Positions 1-7,979 of a stretch of 25,316 bases of DNA are shown here, piece by piece. The notes beneath the pieces were generated by a model. It was not told the DNA's origin. It did not search any database and was given only the letters and a program-made list of their open reading frames with translations. Position 1 is the stretch's first letter. The number at the start of each line of letters is the position of its first letter. The stretch is taken from IMG/VR virus record IMGVR_UViG_3300005613_000383, positions 1-25,316 of that record. The stretch is one strand, 5' to 3'. The stretch is from a virus. The position numbers and the translations under genes were made by a program.

Positions 1-860
1 GGCAATCAAAATCAGTCATGAGAATCACCTGTAAGTTGATGTAAAGAGTGAAGGATTAGAGTCCTTCAGTGAACCAAATAGGCTCAAGGGAGGATTCATA
101 AACTCCAGAAAAGGTCATGATCATGGCTGATCACAACATAAACTGAGGTAGAGCTGCTGTATCTATGGGTACTACAAGACTGCAAACCCTCAGACATAAG
201 TCAACTCTACCCAGCAAAAACAAAAGAGAGCACACACAGTGCACAAAATGATGTCAAAAGTATTAAATTGTATGGTCTGAAGCAAAATGATGATAGAAGC
301 ATTCCCCTGGGGGCCTGATGTATAGATACACCACGCCTGTATGGGGAAGATAACTAGATCTAAGACTATTGAAGAGGAGAATGCAGCCAGGGTTTGCCTG
401 GGGGACACGATAAGAATCGCGGTTCTCATACAACGCAGGGGACTTTCCGCACCTGCTCGCCTAATTATTGACCGGTCTCGTCAGAACTTACCTAGGGGAA
501 CCACTGGCCCGCGTGACGCTGACGGCGGATGGCTCAGCCTGATAAGAGGCGACCGATGCTGATTGTCAAGGTTCTGCCTGAGTTACATGTCCCGAAAGAC
601 TGAGCCAGGCTTGGTTTGGTTTGAAGTCAGAGCCGCGTGGGCTTTGACTTGTGAACCAGATTACAGATTCATGCCGAACTTGGCAAGATCTGTAGACAAT
701 TCGGCGACTGGCACAGAGGGCGAGCTGCCTGGCGGATGGAAGATCGCGACTCGTCTGAGTCCGTTTCCGATCCGTTGCAAGCAACATAGGACCACACCAC
801 GCACTAGGTCAACCCTTTCGAACCGGTTCGCAGATTGGCACACTAGGTGCGCTCCTTGTG
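1..860 (+). ncRNA. Candidate large structured noncoding RNA
   Basis: No convincing gene lies here: the short open frames overlap each other on both strands, lack good ribosome binding sites and look like no protein family. The sequence is instead rich in helices. Hairpins seen by eye: 49-55/62-68; 118-123/128-133 (TGATCA around TGGC); 302-307/343-348 enclosing 312-314/335-337 and 319-322/327-330; 387-391/397-401; 413-417/422-426 (CGCG loop); 435-439/452-456; 663-668/688-693 enclosing 672-675/682-685; 734-741/765-773 (8 bp, one bulge) capped by 748-752/757-761; 774-777/782-785; and a four-tier hairpin at 800-851. Long-range pairs include 147-153/205-211 and 530-537/600-607, and 482-487/571-576 would cross the latter as a pseudoknot. 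G-U pairs (417/422, 809/838) favour the plus strand. Size and phage setting recall the GOLLD and ROOL classes, but I cannot assign it. The 5' end may lie outside the window. Confidence 0.6.
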
Positions 861-1151
861 ACTAAGAGGAACCGCATGCGCGTGCGCGATTGTATCACAC
901 CACCCCGCCGTGGTTCACGAATTGAAACAATGATAGGAAGAGACTCCCCCATCAAGTCACACTACCCCTTACTACATTTATCTATAAGTTATACTTATCC
1001 CCCCTCCCCGGCACCCCGCAATTCGCCCTTTTTTTACTTATTTGACATATACGACGGCGTGGGCGAGAAGGGTCTGGGTATCTTCCCGGTATTTTGGGGG
1101 TAAAATTTTTGGAATAGCAATATAGTAACAGCGGCCTAGAAAAAAATCGGG
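861..1151. other. Gene-free, pyrimidine-rich spacer
   Basis: No gene is visible. The stretch contains a small hairpin (899-903/910-914, ACCAC/GTGGT around a C-rich loop) and a C/T-rich run near 990-1036 ending in seven T residues. CGAATTG at 918-924 is the exact complement of CAATTCG at 1019-1025, which lies just before CCC and the T run at 1029-1035. That could form a long-loop terminator-like structure closing the RNA candidate to the left, but a 94-nt loop makes this weak. TTGACA at 1042-1047 has no good -10 box at normal spacing. Confidence 0.5.
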
Positions 1152-1475
1152 CTAGCTAAACCGTACGAAAAGCTCCTCAGGGTGTTCTGGGAAGTAGTGC
1201 AGCGTGGCTGGACACAACCAACCTTCTTTTTTGCCATATTTGTACCAAGCACCTCCTTGTTCGGGGTTTGTTTTGGTTAGTTTCCCGTGTGAACCGGGGA
1301 AATCGGACGCAGAGAAGGTGATTCGGTGCGTTTGTTGGGTCTTGTCGCTGAATTTTTCGATAAATTCGTCGATGATTTCCGGTATACCTGCCACAAACGG
1401 TTCGTTTTCAAGTCCTTTAAAGGGATCAGTGAAAGCCCATGTGCCATGGTGCCTGTAGATCTCGATGATCATCAT
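1152..1475 (-). CDS. Small conserved-looking protein (possibly DUF6717-like)
   Basis: A 107-residue protein if read from the ATG at 1475; the frame also allows a TTG start at 1487. I chose the ATG because the MMIIEIYRHHGTW start looks like the real beginning of the domain. Visible features are HGTWAFTDPFKGL, EPFVAG, a FSASDFPG segment, a GGAWY motif and a GWLCPATLHYF stretch near the C-terminus. From memory this pattern fits a small uncharacterised family of cyanobacteria and phages (DUF6717), but I could not check it. No function is known to me. It is isolated, points left toward the gene-free region and diverges from the long virion-type gene at 1586. Confidence 0.7.
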   Translation of the reverse strand: MMIIEIYRHHGTWAFTDPFKGLENEPFVAGIPEIIDEFIEKFSDKTQQTHRITFSASDFPGSHGKLTKTNPEQGGAWYKYGKKEGWLCPATLHYFPEHPEELFVRFS

Positions 1476-1544
1476 GGAGTTGTTCAAGAAAAAACGGTGC
1501 GCTGTGCAAGCGGCAAATATAGCACCCCGTGGAGACAGGTAATT

Positions 1545-7518: not shown

Positions 7519-7914
7519 TTGAAGGTTTACGGACCCTATACCCGCAAGGACGGAAGGCAGATTGTTGTCTTTTACAAGGACGGCAAAGGCAAGACCGTGA
7601 GCTATCCCAAGTATCTGCTTGAGCAGAAACTAGGTAGAGCACTTCTTGCTCACGAGACATGTGATCACATTGATAATGATCACACCAACAACTGTCTCGA
7701 TAACCTGCAGGTTTTGTCTCGTGCGGACAATGCTCGTAAGAGCCAAGCTCTACGACCTGCTGAACTTGGAACTTTTACATGCCCCGTGTGTAATTGTTCG
7801 TTTACTAAGCCTATGAACTATGTCAAACACAATCTAAAACAGAACAAGTCCGGTCCTTATTGCTCCAGATCTTGTGCTGGTAAAGGCGGCCATCCATCTA
7901 ACAAGCCCGCTTAG
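7519..7914 (+). CDS. HNH homing-type endonuclease
   Basis: A 131-residue protein. The HNH core is at about residues 45-66: HETCDHIDNDHTNNCLDNLQ, with the metal-binding His pairs and Asn of phage HNH nucleases. A C-terminal zinc finger follows (C88, C91, C115, C119). Such proteins nick or cut DNA and spread as free-standing mobile genes. The start is uncertain: a stop lies in frame at 7489-7491 and the only usual initiator before the domain is TTG at 7519. Its stop codon (7912-7914) lies inside the following tRNA gene, so the last ten bases code for both. The zinc finger resembles the N-terminal part of the protein on the other side of the tRNA (8044-8538). Confidence 0.85.
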   Translation: MKVYGPYTRKDGRQIVVFYKDGKGKTVSYPKYLLEQKLGRALLAHETCDHIDNDHTNNCLDNLQVLSRADNARKSQALRPAELGTFTCPVCNCSFTKPMNYVKHNLKQNKSGPYCSRSCAGKGGHPSNKPA

Positions 7915-7979
7915 CCCAATTGGTAGCAGGCAACAGATTTAAGCTCTGTTCAGTGTCGGTTCGAATCCGACAGCGGGTA
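7905..7979 (+). tRNA. tRNA with UAA anticodon and short variable loop
   Basis: Full cloverleaf: acceptor 7905-7911/7972-7978 (GCCCGCT/AGCGGGT, first pair G-U), a D arm with a 3-bp stem and a GG-containing loop, anticodon stem 7933-7937/7945-7949 (ACAGA/TCTGT), loop TTTAAGC with anticodon TAA at 7940-7942, a five-base variable loop, T stem 7955-7959/7967-7971 and T loop TTCGAAT. Discriminator A at 7979; no CCA encoded. UAA would read UUA (Leu), but bacterial tRNA-Leu normally has a long variable arm, absent here. The amino acid charged is therefore uncertain. The first ten bases overlap the HNH gene. Confidence 0.85.

Follow-up and report, generated by a model that had tools for sequence, protein, structure and literature searches.

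The first kilobase of the window, by which we mean the whole stretch of 25,316 bases from an IMG/VR virus record, appears to encode a large, conserved and uncatalogued structured RNA, a prediction supported by covariation, by shuffled-alignment controls and by a covariance model. A large undescribed RNA had been proposed here in an earlier sequence-only reading, on the plus strand; judged by the comparative evidence below, the RNA is on the opposite, minus strand. The same reading had described positions 1 to 860 as lacking a convincing gene and rich in nested hairpins, both of which were borne out (the longest ORF has 100 aa), but its extent was wrong: the element spans ~49 to ~1028, and the window opens with 20-odd bases that belong to the start of a leftward gene (Table 1). 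Protein coding was discarded as an improbable explanation, given that no ORF exceeds 100 aa and that element lengths vary among homologues. As in large ornate phage RNAs, the element is long, highly structured, conserved by covariation and without an ORF. Because its large terminase and portal/virion protein place the window near Synechococcus phage S-EIV1 (portal identity, 46%), the source virus is, on these markers, a cyanophage and a distant relative of S-EIV1; blastn of the window DNA against phage records gave no matches. The window also carries a tRNA-Leu gene at 7905 to 7979.

Homologues were gathered via the neighboring 740-aa gene, the portal, small neighbor genes and two DNA motifs, and were aligned from the conserved A/T-run to the first leftward ORF. 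The element occurs at the equivalent place in ~24 related IMG/VR contigs, with lengths between 780 and 1420 nt. Both ends of the RNA are alike among homologues, and the middle is mosaic and swapped between phages: positions ~716 to 800 of the window are nearly identical in contig L006 despite differing flanks, and the groups diverge too strongly in the central part for one consensus fold to cover the family. Several contigs start, end or wrap in or near the RNA (window 1 to 20, the starts of L241 and L005, and L219/L220), suggesting that strain variation at the RNA breaks assemblies.

Table 1. Predicted features at the left end of the window (window coordinates)
Feature	Positions	Strand	Details
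First leftward gene, start	1..28	-	GTG at 28-26 or ATG at 19-17; truncated by the window edge
Whole structured RNA (predicted)	49..1028	-	~980 nt, read leftward from ~1028 to 49; predicted 5′ and 3′ ends
Terminal hairpin H1	49..68	-	UGAAGGA-CUCUAA-UCCUUCA; both sides changed in 4 of 7 pairs across homologues
Hairpin H2	70..86	-	UGAGCC/GGUUCA; 97-98% of cells paired; compensatory change in 2 pairs
GAUCA hairpin	114..137	-	palindromic stem sequence in every sequence of the model alignment
Rod hairpin	142..216	-	31 base pairs; G-U versus A-C cells and fold z (see text)
Hairpin A	227..244	-	G-U kept on minus; plus would need A-C
Direct repeat, copy 2	288..300	-	CUUCUAUCAUC
Nested central-region hairpin	302..348	-	z -4.1; helices 302-307/343-348 and 312-321/328-337
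UUCG-loop hairpin	588..601	-	GUCU-UUCG-GGAC; GUCC-UUCG-GGAC in L003
5′-domain hairpin	836..856	-	GCGCAC-CUA-GUGUGC, then CCAAUC motif
Direct repeat, copy 1	928..941	-	CUUCCUAUCAU
Conserved block, putative divergent promoter	1029..1140	.	alignment of 22 sequences including S-EIV1

Folded as a single sequence, the region gave z values of −6.1 on the plus strand and −5.1 on the minus strand. Since coding controls from the same window reached −4.4 and −7.1, we regard such folding as weak evidence and rejected its energy as proof; for the same reason homologues were gathered and comparative tests were left to decide. One global alignment of all members was too divergent (9 to 18 consensus pairs), so groups were analyzed separately, and a strict strand-symmetric helix finder was too stringent, returning 3 helices. 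Compared with column-shuffled alignments (16 to 20 shuffles per group, which makes the z values approximate), the consensus folds of four groups scored −8.5, −5.4, −9.4 and −6.5 on the minus strand, with −9.4 for the group holding the window, versus −5.0, −1.1, −5.1 and −7.3 on the plus strand. Set against the shuffled difference, the difference between strands favored minus with z values of −4.7, −3.1, −2.6 and −0.8, the last belonging to group V (L006, L097 and L214), where the preference is not clear. Wobble pairs and A-C mismatches were counted in helices found by Watson-Crick pairs only. On this count, G-U pairs were more frequent on the minus strand in the L006 group (18 versus 4) and in the L215 group (15 versus 3) and even between strands in the window's own group; because some helices favor plus, for example through G-U near 634 to 660, the case for the minus strand rests on totals. 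Taken as a whole, G-U pairs favor minus, contradicting the G-U argument by which the plus strand had been proposed. In addition, GNRA and UUCG loops are kept on the minus strand, and the variation in GNRA loops obeys the rule (GCAA to GCGA, GAAA to GAGA).

Compensatory base changes, for which the sequence-only reading had suggested examining homologues, are present in many helices. Across seven sequences, 94.8% of the cells in H1 and H2 are paired and six pairs have changed on both sides, a covariation score reached by none of 500 shuffles, and slid versions of the two helices drop to 28 to 52% paired cells; adding the GAUCA hairpin gave a similar result. H2 holds a G-U pair on the minus strand (G-C in some homologues) that would be A-C on the plus strand. 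For the rod hairpin, four homologues together show 98 Watson-Crick, 23 G-U, no A-C and 3 other cells on the minus strand, and the rod folds alone with z −6.0 on minus versus −2.7 on plus in the window and −8.0 versus −3.9 in L004; a long rod equivalent to it occurs in the L215 group. Three of the helices named in the sequence-only reading survive in conserved form: the long-range helix 147-153/205-211 is the base of this much longer rod, the nested hairpin in the central region (302-348) recurs, and close homologues retain the crossing helix 482-487/571-576 as a consensus version, 482-492/565-576. Helix 530-537/600-607, by comparison, is not conserved, its second half being lost from L004 and L101 in the alignment. 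The distance from the 5′-domain hairpin to the 5′ end is ~180 to 185 nt in most close homologues and 196 to 257 nt in others. A recurrent intergenic element of T4-like cyanophages, GUGUGCCAAU...GCACAC...CCCCAUUGG, resembles a pseudoknot (for instance at L122:4825-4925, at L158:3055-3147 and in L110 upstream of 6001); at a loose cut-off it was found at 210 places in 122 phage records, with no Rfam match, and a stretch resembling it lies in the 5′ domain of the large RNAs of L101, L003, L212 and L236.

A covariance model of the 3′-terminal module, R1, built from H1, H2 and the GAUCA hairpins, matched L006 (6e-8), L224 (2e-5) and L230 (8e-5) outside its training set, as well as L212, L236, L097, L231, L235 and L219, and L215 weakly. 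All of these nontraining matches lie at the expected place and on the expected strand, and nothing of comparable score was found in T4-like cyanophage contigs. In L221, a second, weaker match (E 0.003) lies at 331 to 420, farther along the same strand.

At the other end, the RNA is predicted to begin at an A-run adjoining a conserved block of 110 bp. On the minus strand this block reads CTTCTCGCCC (1061 to 1070), followed after ~20 nt by TAAGTA and A7 (1029 to 1040), a pattern that takes the form of an A/T-rich hexamer and then seven or eight A across homologues; on the plus strand it holds a −10-like TATAGT (1121 to 1126), a TATAAT-like hexamer. From these motifs we infer a divergent promoter. 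The promoter motif had no hits in GTDB genomes. Just beyond the promoter-like block, L215 carries a tRNA gene on the plus strand (1964 to 2036), as do L216, L231 and L235 likewise; the Rfam search calls the tRNA in L215 and L216, and its anticodon is CAT by eye. A DUF6717 gene with >90% identity between phages adjoins the block in some of them (window 1152 to 1487, minus strand) and lies ~2.4 kb off it in L006 (4331 to 4666).

Between the end of the 3′ module and the start codon of the first leftward ORF lie 19 to 31 nt. The family of this ORF varies across phages, with several unrelated ones represented, among them Pfam Kyano_Gp96; L219 holds an intact homologue of the window's first leftward gene. 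No clear terminator was found at the 3′ end of the RNA, so that a free RNA would need processing. Hairpin A has a terminator-like score and, in many homologues, a U-rich stretch behind it, the U-run being missing in the L215 group, and is a weak candidate for a terminator that would give a product of ~810 nt. In many members the CUUCCUAUCAU motif occurs twice, ~80 to 120 nt and ~700 to 1020 nt from the 5′ end, the two copies bracketing the mosaic middle. The copies are more alike within one phage than between phages (L215, L213 and L211 have 17, 13 and 12 nt identical, respectively), and could serve as sites for protein binding or for recombination.

How much of this RNA the neighboring genes require can be gauged from S-EIV1 (KJ410740), whose junction has the same promoter-like block and gene layout with only ~390 nt between. 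This leader (L226:19043-19432) is structured on the minus strand (z −4.5), is less than half as long as the window RNA and gives no R1 match; it holds UGACUACGUUA twice on the minus strand. S-EIV1 thus manages with ~390 nt, which indicates that expression of those genes in this phage does not depend on the full RNA.

Taken together, we consider it fairly probable that the ~980 nt of the minus strand form the untranslated leader of a leftward transcript that acts as RNA itself. Leftward transcription would start at the divergent promoter block, the RNA would be the first kilobase of the transcript in an S-EIV1-like cyanophage, and it would act in its own right during infection, either freed from the leader by processing or as a stable 5′ scaffold of the transcript, like large ornate phage RNAs. 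An autonomous RNA is most likely because the association is with the promoter and not with any one gene; together with the short S-EIV1 leader, this linkage speaks against a switch specific to one gene and favors an autonomous RNA or a general 5′ scaffold. It is possible, if doubtful, that the RNA instead acts purely in cis, staying on the leftward mRNA without a separate product and controlling it by antitermination, RNase E protection or translation of the first gene. Structured leaders are common, the RNA always sits just ahead of the first leftward ORF (19 to 31 nt), and no convincing terminator was found at its end; however, the downstream gene family varies between phages, S-EIV1 does with ~390 nt, and ~1 kb with many domains far exceeds any phage leader known to us. 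Both readings fit, and we give more weight to the autonomous RNA. An unlikely but more far-reaching form of it would be an independent ornate-RNA family, freed from the leftward leader during infection of cyanobacteria and self-assembling into a defined particle; possible cues to self-assembly are the palindromic GAUCA hairpin, the paired repeat motifs and, in L003, a loop, CUUAGUUAC, complementary to a linker, GUAACUAAG.

The remaining explanations fare much worse. A plus-strand noncoding RNA ending at the T-run 1029 to 1035 would accommodate the conservation of that run, the A-rich putative loops on plus and some G-U pairs there, but is made very improbable by the strand tests, by the rod with no A-C on minus and by the G-U pair in H2. 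The T-run itself was rejected as a plus-strand terminator because homologues have C-rich sequence without a stem before it, and a minus promoter is the better reading of the block. Similarly little credence is due to a DNA-level element (an origin of replication, a packaging site or a recombination hotspot that would fold only as single-stranded DNA, if at all): a position between divergent gene blocks, direct repeats around a mosaic middle and the several contigs that break here would suit it, whereas strand-asymmetric wobble and tetraloop patterns indicate single-stranded RNA and compensatory changes occur in many helices. A very divergent GOLLD or ROOL RNA, suggested by the similar size, the phage setting, the combination of conserved and variable domains and the tRNA adjoining the block in some relatives, is hardly credible at all given that searches of both strands of the window and 13 homologous stretches found no Rfam match (E up to 1 to 10).

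To our knowledge, there are few large ornate RNAs, and what they do is among the open questions of bacterial RNA biology. Of 4227 Rfam families, only tRNAs reach the gathering score, with no riboswitch, ribozyme or intron. Running the covariance models named in the sequence-only reading (GOLLD, ROOL, OLE, HEARO and raiA) returned no match; the window gave none on plus or minus at E up to 5 to 10, and the 13 homologous stretches likewise gave none on either strand. The RNA is therefore not a recognizable GOLLD or ROOL member, and the likeness to these RNAs holds for size and phage setting but not for covariance-model matches, in the window or in the 13 stretches. GOLLD assembles into a homo-14-mer cage. 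OLE, HEARO and raiA are large bacterial structured RNAs, as the window RNA would be, and none has a covariance-model match in the window or the homologous stretches. Cyanophage structured RNAs in likely 5′ UTRs include manA, wcaG and PhotoRC-II (PMC2864571); these are tied to metabolic or photosynthesis genes, and the window RNA is without an Rfam match. Nearest in kind in size, complexity and setting are GOLLD (RF01998), which is >800 nt long, phage or prophage encoded, of unknown function and often near tRNA, with one part conserved and one variable, and ROOL, a large ornate phage RNA of unknown function that forms an RNA cage (PMC12286853). GOLLD conserves its 3′ half over its 5′ half and sits in a tRNA island, whereas the window RNA has both termini conserved around a variable middle and is joined to the start of a gene block; ROOL differs in genomic context. 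The window RNA most likely represents a new family of large phage RNA. An unrelated family from aquatic cyanophages that is linked to a promoter, and not to a tRNA island, would offer a new comparison, and the isolate S-EIV1, with its short version, an experimental entry point.
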